From: Acidimicrobiaceae bacterium
GTDB taxonomy: Bacteria > Actinomycetota > Acidimicrobiia > Acidimicrobiales > RAAP-2
Assembly (NCBI GenBank): GCA_003161255.1
Contig: PMOQ01000106.1
Coordinates: 7,897-71,896, forward strand
Direction: 5' to 3'
Length of the DNA stretch: 64,000 nucleotides
Shown: positions 26,781-34,651 of the stretch, piece by piece
Layout of the letters: every line of letters begins with the position of its first letter
Numbering within the stretch: the first letter of the stretch is position 1
Translations under genes and position numbers: made by a program
The notes under the pieces: model-generated
Seen by the model: the letters and a program-made list of their open reading frames with translations, nothing else
What the model was told of the DNA's origin: nothing
Database searches by the model: none

Positions 26781-26824
26781 GAAACCGCGGAACGCTATGC
26801 CCACTCCACCGACCAGGCTGGAAC

Positions 26825-26864
26825 GTCTAGCTGACTAGACGCTACTCCGTCTATATATATAGAC
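26825..26864 (+). promoter_or_regulatory. hicAB promoter with twin 16-bp operators
   Basis: Two inverted repeats share one design, GTCTA-N6-TAGAC, at 26825-26840 and 26849-26864 (the second, GTCTATATATATAGAC, is fully palindromic). Their centres are 24 bp apart. A CTGACT (-35) with a 17-bp spacer to TATATA (-10) fits here, so operator 1 overlaps the -35 and operator 2 the -10. This is a natural site for autorepression by HicB. Confidence 0.75.
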
Positions 26865-26871
26865 TGAGGAG

Positions 26872-27072
26872 GTGATCGCTCGGACGTTGATCCGCAGACT
26901 CCGTGAACTCGGCTGCAGGCCGGTGCGCCAACGAGGATCACACCAGATCTGGCGATGCGGCAACTGCCAGACCGTGATCCCGCTCCACACCGGCGACATC
27001 CCCGCCGGCACGCTCCGCTCCATCGAGCGGGACCTCGAAGCCTGCCTCGGCCCGAAGTGGCTCACCCAATGA
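26872..27072 (+). CDS. hicA: HicA-type mRNA interferase toxin
   Basis: 66 residues, GTG start. The small double-stranded-RNA-binding-like fold is recognised by LIRRLRELGCRPVRQRGSHQIWR, with the catalytic histidine in GSHQIW, and by TVIPLHTGDIPAGTLRSIERDLE. It degrades mRNA unless bound by HicB. The AGGAGG directly abuts the GTG, an abnormally short spacing, so translation may begin nearly leaderless or from the TTG at 26887. The GNC insertion after IWR (WRCGNCQTV) adds two cysteines not usual in HicA. Confidence 0.9.
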   Translation: MIARTLIRRLRELGCRPVRQRGSHQIWRCGNCQTVIPLHTGDIPAGTLRSIERDLEACLGPKWLTQ

Positions 27073-27089
27073 CCAACGTGGAGGAGAAC

Positions 27090-27497
27090 ATGAAGACTTA
27101 CACCGCCCGCCTGGAGCGGGAGAAGGACGGGCGCTGGACCGTCGAGCTCGAGGAGGAGCCACGAGTCCACACCTGGGGCAAGACCGTTGAACAAGCCCTC
27201 GCCCGCATGCGCGAAGCCGCCGCCTTGTGGTTCCAGATCGAGGAAGACCAGATCGAGCTCGTCCCCCGACCAGTGCTGCCCAAGTCCGCCGACAGGACCG
27301 TCGAGCAGGCACGCCAAGCACGCGAGCAAGCCCGCAGCGCTGACCGCCTCGCCCTCGAGCGAACCCGGAAAGCCGCCGCGACACTCACCAGCCGAGGGAT
27401 CAGCATGCGCGACGCCGCCGCCATCTTGGGCATCTCTCACCAGCGGGTTCACCAGCTCCTCGCCACCGAGGTGCCGCCGCGCCGCAAAGCCGGCTGA
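27090..27497 (+). CDS. hicB: HicB-type antitoxin with C-terminal HTH
   Basis: 135 residues from ATG 27090, which has GGAGGAG four bases upstream and gives MKTYTARLEREKDGRWTVEL, the standard HicB opening. An in-frame ATG at 27069 overlapping the hicA stop is the alternative. The N-terminal partial RNase H-like domain is followed by a long charged helix (VEQARQAREQARSADRLALERTRKAA). A C-terminal helix-turn-helix follows (GISMRDAAAILGISHQRVHQLL, about residues 102-124). It neutralises HicA and should bind the twin operators upstream. Confidence 0.9.
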   Translation: MKTYTARLEREKDGRWTVELEEEPRVHTWGKTVEQALARMREAAALWFQIEEDQIELVPRPVLPKSADRTVEQARQAREQARSADRLALERTRKAAATLTSRGISMRDAAAILGISHQRVHQLLATEVPPRRKAG

Positions 27498-27546
27498 GGA
27501 GGGAGCCAAAGACTGGTCGGTAAGCAAGGCCAAGGTCAGCTAGCGG

Positions 27547-27564
27547 CGAATCCCCTCGTGTGCT
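27547..27564 (+). repeat. Degenerate direct repeat of the tRNA-Gly 3' end
   Basis: CGAATCCCCTCGTGTGCT matches the tRNA-Gly end CGAATCCCGTCGTCCGCT (26760-26777) at 15 of 18 positions, in the same orientation, about 790 bases downstream. It could be an old attachment site that brackets hicAB. No integrase is present, so this is tentative. Confidence 0.35.
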
Positions 27565-27650
27565 GCGGTATGTGGAGAGAGTCCTGCTGGGCGTTTGTAT
27601 CGAGGTGGACTTAGCTCCACTGCCACAATCAGGGTCGGTGGGTCGGAGCG

Positions 27651-27689
27651 GTGCACGCCGGCGCCCTTCTCGGCGGCGCAGGCGTGCAC
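27651..27689 (+). promoter_or_regulatory. Inverted repeat before the SNF2 helicase gene
   Basis: GTGCACGCC and GGCGTGCAC are perfect 9-bp arms separated by 21 bases (27660-27680), ending 38 bases before the preferred GTG start of the helicase. It may be a leader hairpin or an operator. The rest of 27498-27727 shows no gene. Confidence 0.4.
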
Positions 27690-27727
27690 GGTACCGTCAC
27701 TGGGCGGACCCAGAGAGGTGGGAAAGG

Positions 27728-30700
27728 GTGCTCACGCCGGTCGAAGAGGAGATCGTGACCAGATTCGTCGGGCCGACGACCTTCAGCCGGGGACGGGCCT
27801 ATGCCCGCCAGGGGGCGGTGCGAAGCAGTCAGTGGACGAACGACGGCACACGCCTGTTTGGCGAGGTCCAGGGCGGGGACCGATCTCCGTATGCGGTCTC
27901 GATCGTCGTGACCCGATCGCCGTCGGACCGCATTGTCGCGATCGATGCCGCCTGCAGCTGCCCGGTCGAGATCAACTGCAAGCACGCCGTTGCGCTGCTC
28001 ATTGCCGCCGCCCCGCAGTGCGCGCCATCGGATCTTGACCCTGTAGCCACTGGCGAGGAGCCTGTCGTTCGAATCGTCGGCGGCGCGAGGCCAGCCAAAG
28101 GGCTTCCGGCCGGCACCGATCGATGGCCTGGTGTCCAGCCGGTCAAGAAGGCGCCCAGCTGGGAGGCCCCCCTGCATGCAGTGGTTGGTGGAACCGAGTC
28201 GGGTGCTTTCGAGTCAGAGCCAGCTGAGATCGGGCTCCAGTTCGAGCTGGTCATGACCTCGCCTCCGAGCACGTCGCGATCGAGCGCACCGACGTCGGGG
28301 ATCCGGGTTCGACCGGTCGTCCGGAACCACACCGACAACTGGGTTAGGACCGGAATCTCGTGGTCGAGGCTCGACTACTTCACCTACGGGCGATCGGTGC
28401 GCGGCCGAACGGCTGGACACCTGATGATTCTCACCGAGCTCTTGGCGTTGAGCCGGTTGTCCACCCGTGGGTACTACTACAGCGCAACGCCCGATGCGGT
28501 CTGGCTTCAGACGATCAACAGCCGGCGGCTCTGGGACCTGCTCATCGAGGCCCGAGACCTCCGGCTGCCGCTGCTCGGATTCGGGCGCCATGCCGTGCCA
28601 GTCGACCTTCGAGCACGGCCAGCGCGGGTCACCATCGACGTGACCCGTGTCGACTCGGGTCTCGAGCTCCGACCTCATGTCCGGATCGACGACGAGGACG
28701 TGCCTCTGGCGTCGTCCCTCTTGATCGGAGAGTCGGCCCACGGCATCGCATGGTGGGGCGATCACCGCGGTGCGCCGGGCGGCACCGCTCATCTCGCCCT
28801 GGCCTCGCTTGCTGCACCGGTGGACGTCGGCCTTCGTGCCTTCCTTCGATCCGAACCGGTGGGAGTGCCACGACGCGACGAGGAGCGGTTCCTGCGCGAC
28901 TTCTATCCGAAGTTGGTGCGCCGGGTCGATGTGCGCTCGAGCGACCAATCCGTCGATCTTCCCGAGCTGCCCCAGCCCACCCTGGTGCTTACCGTCAAGC
29001 AATTCGATGCCCATCGGGTCGAGCTGAGGTGGGCTCGAGGGGCCGCGGGACTCGAGTGGAGAGAGCCGCTCTGGGCCGCGTCAAAGGGCACCGGCGACCA
29101 GGCCGCCGAGAACGCCATCGTCGATGCGGTGATGAGGGTGGTCGGCTCCGTCCCCGAGTTGCTCGAGACCACGCTCCTCGGTGAACGCCTCGCCCAGGAG
29201 GTCTGCCTCGAAGGAATGTCGGCCGTGATGTTCGTCTCCGAGCTTCTCCCAGCCCTGCTGGACGTCGACGGCGTGGAGATCAAGCAGGACGGCACGGCCC
29301 TTGAGTATCGAGAGGTCCTCGAGGCACCGACCGTGCGTCTCGGAGGTTCGGAGTCGAGCGAGAGGGACTGGTTCGACCTGTCGGTCACGGTCAGCGTGGA
29401 CGGCGAGGATGTCCCGTTCGCCGACCTCTTCGTGGCCCTGGCTGAGGGACGGTCGCATCTCATCCTTCCATCAGGGACGTACTTCTCGCTCGACCGCGAC
29501 GAGCTGCGTCAGCTCGCTGAGCTCATCGCAGAGGCGCGCTCACTGGGCGAGGTGTCCGGCGACAGCATCCGCCTCAGCCGATTTCAGGCCAGCCTCTGGG
29601 AGGACCTGCAACGCCTTGGGGTGGTCAGTGCTCAGGCCCGCGACTGGGAGGCCTCGGTGCGAGCGCTCAGCGAGGCCAGCAACCGGATCGAGCACGCCGT
29701 GCCCGACGGCCTCGATGCCACCCTCCGGCCCTATCAGCTGACCGGCTTCAACTGGTTGGCCTACCTGTACGAGCACCGGCTCGGCGGCGTGCTGGCCGAT
29801 GACATGGGGCTCGGGAAGACCATCCAGGCGCTGGCGCTGATGTGCCACACCAAAGAACATGGGCTCGCCCGGTCCCCGTACTTGGTGGTGGTCCCGACGA
29901 GCGTCGTCGGGAACTGGGCGTCCGAGTGCCGCCGGTTCGCTCCGGAGCTCCGCCCGGTCATGGTCACCGAGACCGAGGCTCGCCGGGGCGTCGCTCTCCG
30001 AGCGATCGCCGCCGACGTCGACCTCGTCATCACCTCCTATGCCCTCTTCCGCATCGAGTACGACGACTACGCCGCGCTCGATTGGGCCGGGCTGTTCCTC
30101 GACGAGGCCCAGTTTGCGAAGAACCGGACCTCGAAGGCATACCAGCGGGCCAAGATGCTGCCCGCTCCGTTCAAGGTGGCCATGACGGGGACGCCGATCG
30201 AGAACAATTTGATGGAACTGTGGTCGTTGCTGTCGATCACAGCACCAGGGCTCTTCACCAATCCCGACCGCTTCACGGATCACTACCGGACGCCGATCGA
30301 GAAGAAGGGGGACGCCGAGCGTCTGGCGCAGCTGCGCCGGCGTGTCCGTCCGCTGATCCTGCGCCGGACCAAGGACCAGGTCGTCCGGGACCTACCGCAG
30401 AAGCAGGAACAGGTCCTCGAGCTCGAACTCAATTCGAAGCACAAGAGGCTTTACCAGACCTACCTGCAACGGGAGCGTCAGAAGGTCCTCGGACTGTTGG
30501 GAGACATGCAGAGGAACCGATTCGAGATCTTCCGGTCGCTCACACTGCTGCGCCAGGCAAGCCTCGACATGTCGTTGGTCGACTCCAAGCACGCCAAGGT
30601 TCCTTCAACCAAGCTCGACGCTCTCATGAAAATGCTCGATGACATCGTGGCCGACGGGCACCGGGTGTTGGTATTCAGCCAGTTCACCCGCTTCCTCAAC

Positions 30701-31108
30701 TTGGCCCGAGAGCGAATTCTCCACTCAGGGATCGAGTACTGCTACCTGGATGGGAGGACGCGCAAACGCGATGACGTCATCTCAGGCTTTCGGACAGGTA
30801 CGGCTCCCGTGTTCCTCATCAGCTTGAAAGCCGGTGGGTTCGGGCTCAACCTGACCGAGGCTGACTATTGCATCATCCTCGACCCGTGGTGGAACCCTGC
30901 CATCGAGGCTCAGGCCGTGGACCGCATCCATCGGATTGGCCAGGCGAAGAAGGTCATGGTCTACCGCTTGGTGGCCAAGGACACCTTGGAGGAGAAGGTC
31001 ATGGCCCTCAAGGCGAAAAAGGGTGCTCTGGTCGCCAGCGTCATGGACTCCGGCGACTTCGAATCCGGTACGATGACCGCGGCCGACATTCAGGAGCTGT
31101 TGACCTGA
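27728..31108 (+). CDS. SNF2-family helicase with N-terminal SWIM zinc finger
   Basis: 1126 residues from GTG 27728, just after GGTGGGAAAGG. The track start at 27560 adds an Arg-rich run (RRRPSRRRRRARYR) that crosses an inverted repeat and looks non-coding. SWIM motif CSCPVEINCKH lies at about residues 75-87. A long central region (about 150-640) of beta-rich sequence precedes the SNF2 ATPase: DDMGLGKTIQALAL (motif I, about 690), LDEAQFAKN (II, DEAQ), MTGTPIENN (III), then helicase C VLVFSQFTRFL, KAGGFGLNLTEAD and DRIHRIGQ. It translocates on double-stranded DNA and remodels protein-DNA complexes. The biological role is unknown; it sits between hicAB and a DNA-binding protein. Confidence 0.92.
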   Translation: MLTPVEEEIVTRFVGPTTFSRGRAYARQGAVRSSQWTNDGTRLFGEVQGGDRSPYAVSIVVTRSPSDRIVAIDAACSCPVEINCKHAVALLIAAAPQCAPSDLDPVATGEEPVVRIVGGARPAKGLPAGTDRWPGVQPVKKAPSWEAPLHAVVGGTESGAFESEPAEIGLQFELVMTSPPSTSRSSAPTSGIRVRPVVRNHTDNWVRTGISWSRLDYFTYGRSVRGRTAGHLMILTELLALSRLSTRGYYYSATPDAVWLQTINSRRLWDLLIEARDLRLPLLGFGRHAVPVDLRARPARVTIDVTRVDSGLELRPHVRIDDEDVPLASSLLIGESAHGIAWWGDHRGAPGGTAHLALASLAAPVDVGLRAFLRSEPVGVPRRDEERFLRDFYPKLVRRVDVRSSDQSVDLPELPQPTLVLTVKQFDAHRVELRWARGAAGLEWREPLWAASKGTGDQAAENAIVDAVMRVVGSVPELLETTLLGERLAQEVCLEGMSAVMFVSELLPALLDVDGVEIKQDGTALEYREVLEAPTVRLGGSESSERDWFDLSVTVSVDGEDVPFADLFVALAEGRSHLILPSGTYFSLDRDELRQLAELIAEARSLGEVSGDSIRLSRFQASLWEDLQRLGVVSAQARDWEASVRALSEASNRIEHAVPDGLDATLRPYQLTGFNWLAYLYEHRLGGVLADDMGLGKTIQALALMCHTKEHGLARSPYLVVVPTSVVGNWASECRRFAPELRPVMVTETEARRGVALRAIAADVDLVITSYALFRIEYDDYAALDWAGLFLDEAQFAKNRTSKAYQRAKMLPAPFKVAMTGTPIENNLMELWSLLSITAPGLFTNPDRFTDHYRTPIEKKGDAERLAQLRRRVRPLILRRTKDQVVRDLPQKQEQVLELELNSKHKRLYQTYLQRERQKVLGLLGDMQRNRFEIFRSLTLLRQASLDMSLVDSKHAKVPSTKLDALMKMLDDIVADGHRVLVFSQFTRFLNLARERILHSGIEYCYLDGRTRKRDDVISGFRTGTAPVFLISLKAGGFGLNLTEADYCIILDPWWNPAIEAQAVDRIHRIGQAKKVMVYRLVAKDTLEEKVMALKAKKGALVASVMDSGDFESGTMTAADIQELLT

Positions 31109-31233
31109 CCGGTCGATCTCGAGCACATCGAGCGCTAGGCGGCCATCCGTGCAGCGATGCCGTTAGGTCAATAGAGATCCAGGTCAGCGGACACGGACGG
31201 GATTCTCGGCACCGACAGGCCGCTACCCGTGTG
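31109..31233. other. Non-coding stretch after the SNF2 gene
   Basis: First part of the 365-base gap between the helicase and the HTH gene. I see no gene, no clear terminator and no repeat here. The interesting elements of the gap are in the promoter entry that follows. The remainder (31269-31473) is a 5' leader without recognisable structure. Confidence 0.6.
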
Positions 31234-31268
31234 TTGACAGTTGGCAACAGGTGTTGTAGGTTGTCAAC
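31234..31268 (+). promoter_or_regulatory. Consensus promoter with tandem GTTGNCAAC operators
   Basis: TTGACA (31234-31239), 17-bp spacer, TAGGTT (31257-31262) make a good vegetative promoter. GTTGGCAAC (31240-31248) and GTTGTCAAC (31260-31268) are two near-palindromic 9-mers whose centres are exactly 20 bp apart, about two helical turns. They occupy the spacer and the start-site region. Outer arms GTTGACA and TGTCAAC form a further dyad. Points toward the HTH gene at 31474. Confidence 0.65.
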
Positions 31269-31473
31269 GTAACGGATAGACCTCGGCTGGACTTCGCCGA
31301 GGCTCACAGGTGGCTGGTCGAATCACCTCGTCCTGGCCATCCCTGGGGGAAGGCGACGTGCCGGCGCGAAGGCCACGACTGCCTCGTATGGATCTGGTCG
31401 ACGCCGAGAGTGCCAGCCAACCACGCGAAGCAGATCCGTCGAGCGGTCTACGGCTGCGAAAGAAAAGAGGAAG

Positions 31474-32001
31474 ATGGTGACTGAGTACGAATTAACCTTG
31501 GTAGTCGACGGCGATCTCGCCGATGAGAGCGTTGCGGCCGCCCTCTTCGAGGTTGGCTGTGATGATGCAACCTTCGGCGTCAGTGACGGCATCGGATACG
31601 GCGAATTCATCCGTGAGGCCTCAACGTTCGCCGAAGCGGTGACGAGTGCGATCCACCAGGTCGAGTCCGTTGCTCCGCTTCGGGTTGTGCGGGTAGAGCC
31701 GGACGACATCGTCACGATGACCGACATCGCTGATCGACTAGATCGCACCAGGGAGAGCGTTCGATTGCTGATCGCAGGTCGACGCGGACGTGGTGGTTTC
31801 CCGTCCCCGATCTCCCGTAGTCGAGAACGAAGCCGCCTTTGGCGATGGTCGGATGTGGCCGAATGGCTTGGCCAGATGGAGCCAGAGCAAAGAGAGGCTG
31901 CTCGCTTCACTGCTGCCATTAACGCCGCCCTCGAATTGCGGCACCGATTGGGATCTATGACCGATGAGATCGCTGCGAAGGAAGTACGTGCGCTGGTTTG
32001 A
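31474..32001 (+). CDS. Hypothetical DNA-binding (helix-turn-helix) protein
   Basis: 175 residues; AGAGG lies 3-4 bases upstream of the ATG. The N-terminal half opens with YELTLVVDGDLADESVAAALFEVGCDDATFG and looks like a ferredoxin-like alpha/beta domain. Around residues 87-130, VTMTDIADRLDRTRESVRLLIAGRRGRGGFPSPI...RLWRWSDVAEWL forms a MerR/excisionase-like winged helix whose wing contains FPSPI and LWRWSD. Similar proteins are common in actinobacteria, often alone. It could bind the tandem operators 200 bases upstream; function otherwise unknown. Confidence 0.75.
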   Translation: MVTEYELTLVVDGDLADESVAAALFEVGCDDATFGVSDGIGYGEFIREASTFAEAVTSAIHQVESVAPLRVVRVEPDDIVTMTDIADRLDRTRESVRLLIAGRRGRGGFPSPISRSRERSRLWRWSDVAEWLGQMEPEQREAARFTAAINAALELRHRLGSMTDEIAAKEVRALV

Positions 32002-32164
32002 ATCGAAGACTGTGGTGCACGTGGTACAGGTTTCCGTGCCACCCGCAATGGGCCGAGAATGGAGAGGGGACCTGCGAATCACAGTGAGGAGCCCGCATCG
32101 ACGACAAAAGAACCCTGACTGGTGCGTGGGGAACCCTCCGAAAACCCACTCCTAAGATGGTCGG

Positions 32165-32683: not shown

Positions 32684-32826
32684 TCGTCCCTAGTGGAACA
32701 CTTTGCCGACTCCGTTCGCGAGCGCGGTCGCTGTTGGAGCGGGCCTGTGAGCTTCGCCGCGCCACGGTGATCCAGGCCGATGGTGTGAGGGCGGCGGCGC
32801 CGAGGGTGCCTCGGTCTTGAAGCCAT

Positions 32827-33630
32827 TCAGGGGAACGTCGTCGGGGGCAGCCGGTCACTTCGGCCCGCGACAGTGTTCATGACGCCCTCCCTCCGGGACA
32901 GGTGCGTCATGCTCTCCAGCCGCCCCGTATAGGAGACGGGCTGGTGGAGCATCCAGAGGAGACCTTCGGCGGCCACCTCGGGGGGCTCCCAGTCCCGGAA
33001 GTCGGCTTGCGGCATGTGGGCGCGTGCGCCTTCCGATCCGACCGGTGCGTCGACGCGGAAGCAGTTCATCGCGATGTGGTCGGGCGCGAGCTGCCGGGCC
33101 AGGTCAACCGTCATGCGCTCCACGCCGATCTTGGCGATCCCGTAGGAGGTCGAGGTGATGGTGACCGGGAGCGCCCGGAGGGCGACGAGGGACGAGACGT
33201 TCAGTATGCGGCCCCCGCCCGCGGTCCGGAGGTGGGGCACCGCGTGTCGGGACGCCACGAAAGGCGCGTCGAGGTTGACCGCCATGATGTGGTCATGCAC
33301 GTCGAGGGCGATTTCGAGCCCTCCGATGCCTCCGGCGGCCGCGTTGTTCACGAGGACATCCAGACGACCGAGCTCGGCCACGGTCGTCTGGATCATTTTC
33401 GCCACCTGGGTCCGGTCCGCGAGATCCACGGGGATACCGACCGCCCGGCCGCCGCCGTCGCGGATGCGGTCGACGACATCGTCGAGGGTACCCGACGTCG
33501 GCTGCGGGTGGTCTCGGGTGGATCGGGCAGCGCACGCCACGGCATATCCCTCCTTGGCGAGCGCCCGCGCCAGCGCCGCGCCAATTCCCCGACTCGCCCC
33601 GGTCACAAGGGCCACCTTCTCCACAGTCAC
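32827..33630 (-). CDS. Short-chain dehydrogenase/reductase
   Basis: 267 residues, GTG start. NAD(P)-binding TGASRGIGAALARAL, the structural NNAAAGG, catalytic Ser in LNVSSLVALRALPVTITSTSYGIAK with Tyr and Lys in the YxxxK pattern. An Arg after strand 2 (CAARSTRDHP) suggests NADP preference. The C-terminal VAAEGLLWMLHQPVSYTGRL is typical of actinobacterial SDRs linked to lipid metabolism. Substrate unknown. Confidence 0.9.
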   Translation of the reverse strand: MTVEKVALVTGASRGIGAALARALAKEGYAVACAARSTRDHPQPTSGTLDDVVDRIRDGGGRAVGIPVDLADRTQVAKMIQTTVAELGRLDVLVNNAAAGGIGGLEIALDVHDHIMAVNLDAPFVASRHAVPHLRTAGGGRILNVSSLVALRALPVTITSTSYGIAKIGVERMTVDLARQLAPDHIAMNCFRVDAPVGSEGARAHMPQADFRDWEPPEVAAEGLLWMLHQPVSYTGRLESMTHLSRREGVMNTVAGRSDRLPPTTFP

Positions 33631-33761
33631 GATTCGAGCCTACGGGGCGGGCCAAGCTGGATCGACTCAAGCGCGACTGCTGCACCCTCCATCGGGTGGA
33701 CAAGGGCAACGGCGCTCAGTGTGCCAACGGTCAACGCTCCTGCGTCCACCAGCCCTACACG

Positions 33762-33785
33762 GAGCGCCTCTTCGGAGAGGCGCTC
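33762..33785. terminator. Strong GC-rich hairpin
   Basis: GAGCGCCTCT-TCGG-AGAGGCGCTC is a perfect 10-bp stem with a tetraloop, lying in the 296-base gap between the secreted protein gene and the SDR gene. No T-run follows on either strand, so it could be an I-shaped terminator or an RNA structure. The rest of the gap (33631-33926) has no supported gene. Confidence 0.45.
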
Positions 33786-33926
33786 TCCTGTTTCAGCGCT
33801 CCACAATCTCCCGTTGCTCGCGCAGGGTCGGACCGACGGACGCAAGCAGGATTCGGACCGCTGACGGCACCGAGCGACTCAAGGGGGAGCGGCGACGCGG
33901 ATCGGGGCGCATGCCGTACTAGCCGA

Positions 33927-34538
33927 TCATCCGACCAGTTTGTTCTGCTCCACGGCCGCGCTCGACAGGACCTTCTGCTGGGCTGGGGTGATCGGCACCG
34001 CGGCGCCCGTGGTGGTGGTGGACGAGGTACTACTCGCCGGCACGTTGGTGTTGAGGCCCACCACCTCCGCGATGTTGCCCCGCACCCAATAGATGAGGTA
34101 GTTGTTCGAGCCGCCGCTTCGCTCGATGGCCGAAGAACCCAATTGCTTCGGAGGGGTCCCCGAAGTCCCTGACGGCGTTCCGCTCAGAAGCGCAGCCGCG
34201 GCCTTGCTGGTGGTGCAGGCCACCACTTCTGACAACAGAGCGGTTTGGCCCGAAGCGCTCTCAAACACCTCCCGTGCGGCGTTGGGGCAGGACTTCTGGC
34301 CCGTCTTGGAGGTCGTGCTGGCCTTTGCCGCCACCTTGGTGAAGCCGGCCTTCTTCGCGTATGAAGACGGCAGAAGGTCCTTCGCCAGAGACTTGGGCGA
34401 CGCTAGCGTGCTCGCCCCGGCCGGCATTTGCGCGGCCACGGTCAGCGGTAGCACGACAACCACGGCCAGAGCGGCAAAGATTCTTCGGTTGATCGGCAAG
34501 GTGCGCCCTCCGAATCGGATCGGGATTTGCTCAGACAT
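33927..34538 (-). CDS. Secreted hypothetical protein
   Basis: 203 residues from ATG 34538 (MSEQIPIRF), with GGTGG five bases upstream; the track's earlier start is less likely. A hydrophobic signal lies at about residues 16-40 (RRIFAALAVVVVLPLTVAAQMPAGA). The mature part is Ala/Ser/Thr-rich with two cysteines (KSCPNAAREVF and VVACTTSKAA), a possible disulfide pair, and a low-complexity SSTSSTTTTG run before the C-terminal VPITPAQQKVLSSAAV. No family recognised. It is divergent from the MBL-fold gene. Confidence 0.75.
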   Translation of the reverse strand: MSEQIPIRFGGRTLPINRRIFAALAVVVVLPLTVAAQMPAGASTLASPKSLAKDLLPSSYAKKAGFTKVAAKASTTSKTGQKSCPNAAREVFESASGQTALLSEVVACTTSKAAAALLSGTPSGTSGTPPKQLGSSAIERSGGSNNYLIYWVRGNIAEVVGLNTNVPASSTSSTTTTGAAVPITPAQQKVLSSAAVEQNKLVG

Positions 34539-34651
34539 GTTGCCACCGATTTTTGACCCAGATGTACGGGTGACTCCTGCCGGCACGTCCGGGGACGTTT
34601 GGCTCGTGTCGTCTATGGTGCCCCAGCGCGAGGCCGATGGGAGGGGGCCCC

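Follow-up and report, generated by a model that had tools for sequence, protein, structure and literature searches.

Paired palindromes at the promoter of a probably autorepressed, toxin-first PDC-M06-type operon with a decayed toxin gene in an Acidimicrobiaceae bacterium

The stretch of Acidimicrobiaceae DNA considered here (the window, 64,000 nucleotides of contig PMOQ01000106.1) contains at 31233-31268 what is, from comparison with homologous loci, quite likely the operator-promoter of an autorepressed, toxin-first operon of the PDC-M06 type, in which the toxin gene has decayed and the antitoxin gene has been left as an orphan. The antitoxin gene, the promoter and both operators are, as judged from their sequences, intact. 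The locus is a decayed member of PDC-M06 and not a complete system, since gene A of what should be two intact adjacent genes is broken in the window. A widespread and uncharacterised candidate defence pair thereby gains a concrete, testable regulatory anatomy, in which one palindrome is common to Acidimicrobiia and an E. coli phage and occurs in single- and tandem-site versions with a spacing that tracks the promoter. The pair, moreover, is suggested to be HicA-like on its toxin side and not HicB-like on its antitoxin side, and a locus that keeps its antitoxin and operator but no working toxin is relevant to the decay or domestication of toxin-antitoxin (TA) systems.

An initial annotation of the window had described two 9-mers, GTTGGCAAC at 31240-31248 and GTTGTCAAC at 31260-31268, as tandem operators exactly 20 bp apart within a consensus promoter. 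Their sequence, coordinates and start-to-start distance of 20 bp are as described, and the tandem operators over the promoter are borne out by conservation of a palindrome before the same gene pair across phyla. The repeated unit, however, is not the 9-mer. As seen from the homologous loci, each GTTGNCAAC 9-mer covers only the right-hand portion of a palindrome of 16 bp, GTTGACA-N2-TGTCAAC, and two such palindromes make up the 18-nt direct repeat GTGTTGACAGTTGGCAAC / GTGTTGTAGGTTGTCAAC which encloses the 9-mers (Table 1). The left half of O2 is poor, with matches at 4/7 positions, compromised as it is by the overlapping -10 element. In the promoter itself the consensus holds for the -35 and not for the -10, whose TAGGTT agrees with TATAAT at 3/6 positions; for this reason the promoter at 31234-31262 goes unlisted in an E. 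coli-type scan. TAGGTT does fit the actinobacterial TAnnnT type of -10.

Table 1. Features of the locus, with positions counted along the window
Feature	Position	Strand	Basis
Operator O1 (putative), GTTGACA-GT-TGGCAAC	31233-31248	.	13/14 consensus positions; lies over the -35
-35 element TTGACA	31234-31239	+	sequence; same place in homologous loci; falls within the left half of O1
Operator O2 (putative), GTTGTAG-GT-TGTCAAC	31253-31268	.	11/14 consensus positions; spans the -10 and reaches the start
-10 element TAGGTT (TAnnnT type)	31257-31262	+	sequence; 17-nt spacer from the -35
Predicted transcription start	31269	+	geometry and homologues; 7 nt past the -10; the toxin frame begins on this base
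HicA-like toxin gene (PDC-M06A type), probably decayed	31269-31484	+	frame homology, PADLOC match; stop 31482-31484
AGAGGA, likely ribosome-binding site of the antitoxin gene	31466-31471	+	sequence (inferred)
Antitoxin and probable autorepressor (PDC-M06B type; phrog_2620)	31477-32001	+	homology; N-terminal ferredoxin-like domain, HTH

The count of GTTGNCAAC is by itself weak evidence, since the two copies in the 64-kb window compare with 0.52 expected and two or more are reached in 6/100 shuffles. With respect to the palindrome, O1 and O2 are the sole plus-strand sites in the 64 kb to agree at no fewer than 11/14 positions, whereas random sequence of that length yields 1.2 single sites. A pair (one site of at least 11/14, another of at least 10/14, 19-21 bp apart) was not seen in any of 60 simulated sequences of 64 kb. 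The genome scan for paired sites that had been proposed finds the 9-mer pair at 20-bp spacing only once in the organism's own 3.0-Mb assembly with up to two mismatches allowed, and O1 is the only site in that genome with at most one mismatch to the palindrome.

What follows the promoter first is a HicA-like toxin frame, and not, as had been supposed, the gene of the HTH protein. The HTH protein starts some 200 nt downstream of the promoter, and the apparent leader of that length is explained by the broken toxin frame which fills the space; being both leaderless and broken, the toxin gene is easily missed here. A leader RNA or riboswitch in the gap was considered and rejected, there being no Rfam match and folding no better than that of shuffles (z -0.36). 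In relatives, a HicA-like protein of about 80 amino acids begins, without a leader, at the codon adjoining O2, and the HTH protein comes next; in the distant homologue L004, too, a small open frame that overlaps the HTH gene stands immediately behind the same promoter. The closest relative, L033 (antitoxin 81% identical), has O1, O2, an ATG and an intact toxin of 80 amino acids, to which the window frame is 77% identical. Against the PADLOC model of PDC-M06A the window frame scores E 1.2e-15 and the intact L033 toxin 3e-24.

Two lesions mark the toxin frame in the window. At the start position stands GTA, where two-site relatives usually have ATG or GTG; the frame is open upstream only as far as the TAG of the -10 itself, and between that TAG and the body there is no ATG, GTG or TTG. 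In addition, an in-frame loss of 27 nt removes the HPKKEVEEA block, otherwise conserved, at the start of helix 1. The toxin frame of the window, read from these lesions, is probably dead. What remains of it has no internal stop down to the end of the frame and a dN/dS near 0.1 relative to its relatives, with dS near saturation, so that the loss is probably recent, or the frame is still of some use. It is unlikely, if worth keeping in mind, that the frame is in fact alive, by way of a non-standard start or because its start codon was misassembled, and that the locus is a working TA pair behind the same operator. The unbroken frame, its low dN/dS and its identity to the L033 toxin would all be expected of a living gene, and in an assembly of 107 contigs and 87% completeness an assembly error is possible. 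Against this, the frame has no usual start codon, the 27-nt loss falls on a conserved block, two separate lesions are improbable as sequencing errors, and damaged toxins are also seen among the closest relatives, by an in-frame stop in L035 and by loss of the N-terminal half in L036 (the toxin being intact in L033, L034 and L037/L038). No partner toxin was found elsewhere in the organism's own assembly, in which searches detect a single locus for each of the two genes; the missing part could harbour a second, intact copy. Over all 80 homologous loci, an intact-looking toxin is present in 55, as scored by a script in which contig ends and ambiguous cases count as not intact. A further toxin-less antitoxin is found at L063:2464-2504, where an operator site lies immediately before the antitoxin and no toxin was found. 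Contig JAKBTL010000087.1 carries the module twice, as L037 and L038, which are about 9 kb from each other and identical in toxin and operator sequence.

The antitoxin gene, in contrast to the toxin gene, is intact throughout the close group, with a dN/dS of about 0.1 relative to relatives, at which dS is saturated. Its product matches the PADLOC model of PDC-M06B at E 4.5e-27. The listed open reading frame begins at the ATG at 31474, and the GTG at 31477 agrees better with the homologues.

The palindrome was derived by comparing 80 loci from one scan of a genome collection. The literal GTTGNCAAC had been tried as the conserved unit and was missing from the first homologous loci searched, whereupon the palindrome took its place; a single dyad of 36 bp (GTTGACA..CAACA..TGTTG..TGTCAAC), suggested by a few loci, was given up in view of the one-site homologues, in which the unit is the 16-bp palindrome. 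Ahead of the toxin, 61/70 homologous loci have a site that agrees with the palindrome at 11/14 positions or more, as against 10/1319 random control windows from the same loci. When redundancy is removed at 70% antitoxin identity (n=42), eight loci carry two sites 19-21 bp apart, 31 carry one site and three fall below the threshold, two of the latter (L062 and L071) having by eye altered versions of the palindrome. The spacing of exactly 20 bp therefore holds in the window and not as a rule: in two-site loci, operator spacings of 19, 20 and 21 bp go with -35/-10 spacers of 16, 17 and 18, respectively, and the toxin start codon directly abuts O2, which is to say that the toxin is leaderless, in seven of the eight. 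In one-site loci the palindrome lies over the -35, and this includes Escherichia phage Cyrano, where a 14/14 site stands ahead of a pair annotated as HicA/HicB. Free variation of the 9-mers among orthologous loci, which had been named as an observation that would count against the operators, is seen in half for the literal 9-mers, of which the first bases of the first vary freely among homologues and the CAAC and GTTG cores are constrained; it is not seen for the palindromes.

Taxonomically, the palindrome accompanies the gene pair in Actinomycetota, Acidobacteria, Chloroflexi, Planctomycetes, Gemmatimonadetes, Balneolales, gammaproteobacteria and an E. coli phage. Viral contigs contain a toxin-side relative with a 13/14 site (L113) and an antitoxin-side relative (L032). 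The toxin family is also common on enterobacterial plasmids (187 plasmid records, in addition to phage Cyrano, L157), and many of these records are near 100-110 kb, as in SSU5-type phages.

This distribution bears on which protein reads the palindromes. That some other regulator of the cell reads them, in place of the HTH protein encoded in the operon, appears very unlikely: six other sites with two mismatches are present in the organism's own genome (three for the reversed control pattern), as such a regulator would have it, but palindrome and HTH protein are common to hosts as far apart as Actinomycetota and an E. coli phage, which are improbable sharers of another regulator. Moreover, in two loci the half-sites change on both sides together (GTGGAC..GTCCAC in L072, GTAGAC..GTCTAC in L071) and the recognition-helix residues of the HTH proteins differ too, a correlation which is confounded by phylogeny and is in consequence only suggestive of a pairing between protein and site. 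The same joint changes, together with the conservation of right halves TGTCAAC which lie outside any sigma-70 element alongside the left halves, make it scarcely credible that the repeats are an ordinary promoter in which TTGACA is kept as the -35 and the remainder is chance, for all that the -35 falls in the left half of O1 and the literal 9-mer count is barely above chance.

Recognition by the operon's own HTH protein thus remains the preferred reading, and the initial suggestion that this protein represses itself is upheld as probable by the conservation of the palindrome upstream of the same pair. In the HicAB operons that have been studied, HicB represses from promoter palindromes, and in HicAB3 of Y. 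pestis there are two 15-bp operators, BS1 and BS2, of which BS2 lies over the -10 (PMC11594946). By analogy, the HTH antitoxin is predicted to bind O1 and O2 which, covering the -35 and the -10/+1, respectively, about two helical turns apart, would together shut out RNA polymerase, such that the operon would repress itself. In intact relatives, the putative toxin would be translated leaderless from the base adjoining O2, the antitoxin would have a separate ribosome-binding site, which overlaps the end of the toxin gene, and the toxin would probably modulate repression. In the genome of the window, where the function of the toxin is presumably lost, the antitoxin would repress its own promoter without a partner.

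A search of Pfam and NCBIfam gave no match for either the toxin frame or the HTH protein. In PHROGs, the toxin matches phrog_5923 (unknown) and the HTH protein phrog_2620, 'excisionase and transcriptional regulator' (E 7.4e-30). The model of the intact toxin (pLDDT 86) has the element order H-E-E-E-H, which is that of HicA (alpha-beta-beta-beta-alpha), and a fold search with it places HicA of B. pseudomallei in the top matches at a level that is not significant (E 0.39, TM 0.54 on target length). Profile alignment of the toxin with HicA by hhalign gives a probability of 41%, compared with 1% for the antitoxin as control, and aligns the conserved G-H. Searched by sequence against solved structures, the toxin has no informative relative, the matches to thioredoxin reductase being weak and local. 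The antitoxin model (pLDDT 93.7) consists of a beta-alpha-beta-beta-alpha-beta domain followed by the HTH and further helices; its fold matches are to PII-like and ferredoxin-like proteins and are weak, none being significant at 0.001, and a PDB profile search gives a weak match to an AlpA-family regulator (E 0.063). The partial RNase H fold of HicB was not found in this model and, because the modelled fold differs from that of HicB, the antitoxin would not be classed as a HicB.

Among known systems, a close one is PDC-M06, a phage-defence system which PADLOC catalogues as a candidate only; both proteins match its models and the homologues keep the order A then B. In the literature library searched, no paper names PDC-M06, and no description of its operator was found. 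With HicAB systems the pair shares the toxin-first operon, the small toxin, a downstream antitoxin with a DNA-binding domain and two palindromes at the promoter, here putative operators, and it probably operates in the same manner; it differs from them in that the toxin is missed by the HicA model of Pfam and in that the N-terminal domain of the antitoxin is ferredoxin-like, where HicB has a partial RNase H fold. As far as their descriptions go, the pair is not among the 14 HicA contexts of Gerdes (PMC10865869). The AlpA-like phage regulators of PHROG 2620 resemble the HTH protein in sequence, but here the HTH protein is accompanied by a toxin and an operator of its own, and the neighbours read in the window are a helicase gene and a gene for a carbonic-anhydrase-like protein, neither of them an integrase gene. 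A tentative extension of these comparisons is that PDC-M06 may be a separate HicA-type TA class, in which an AlpA-type HTH that reads a family-wide operator is joined to a domain of ferredoxin-like (PII-like) fold with a possible sensor role, and that several lineages related to Acidimicrobiia may have lost the toxin and kept antitoxin and operator, the retained parts perhaps guarding against incoming copies or serving as a domesticated regulator.

The locus lies in a segment of about 5.3 kb (26783-32108) which comprises a HicA/HicB-like pair, a SWIM-SNF2 helicase and the PDC-M06-type operon. The closest genome of the genus matches the window up to 26782 and from 32109 onward (flanks 93-94%), and the segment was not found beside those flanks there; the two flanks sit on different contigs, hence an empty site is not demonstrated. 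The HicA/HicB-like pair (26872-27497, plus strand) is a separate TA pair 4 kb upstream, in which a HicA toxin (Pfam HicA_toxin, 2.5e-13) is followed by a HicB-like/HTH protein. The helicase (27560-31108, plus strand) has strong PADLOC matches to DpdE (the best, 9.2e-208) and ZorD, in a class, the SNF2 helicases, which cross-matches broadly. Further downstream, the interval 32733-34643 occupies about 1.9 kb in the window as against about 0.1 kb in the closest genome of the genus, and includes a short-chain dehydrogenase-like frame on the minus strand.
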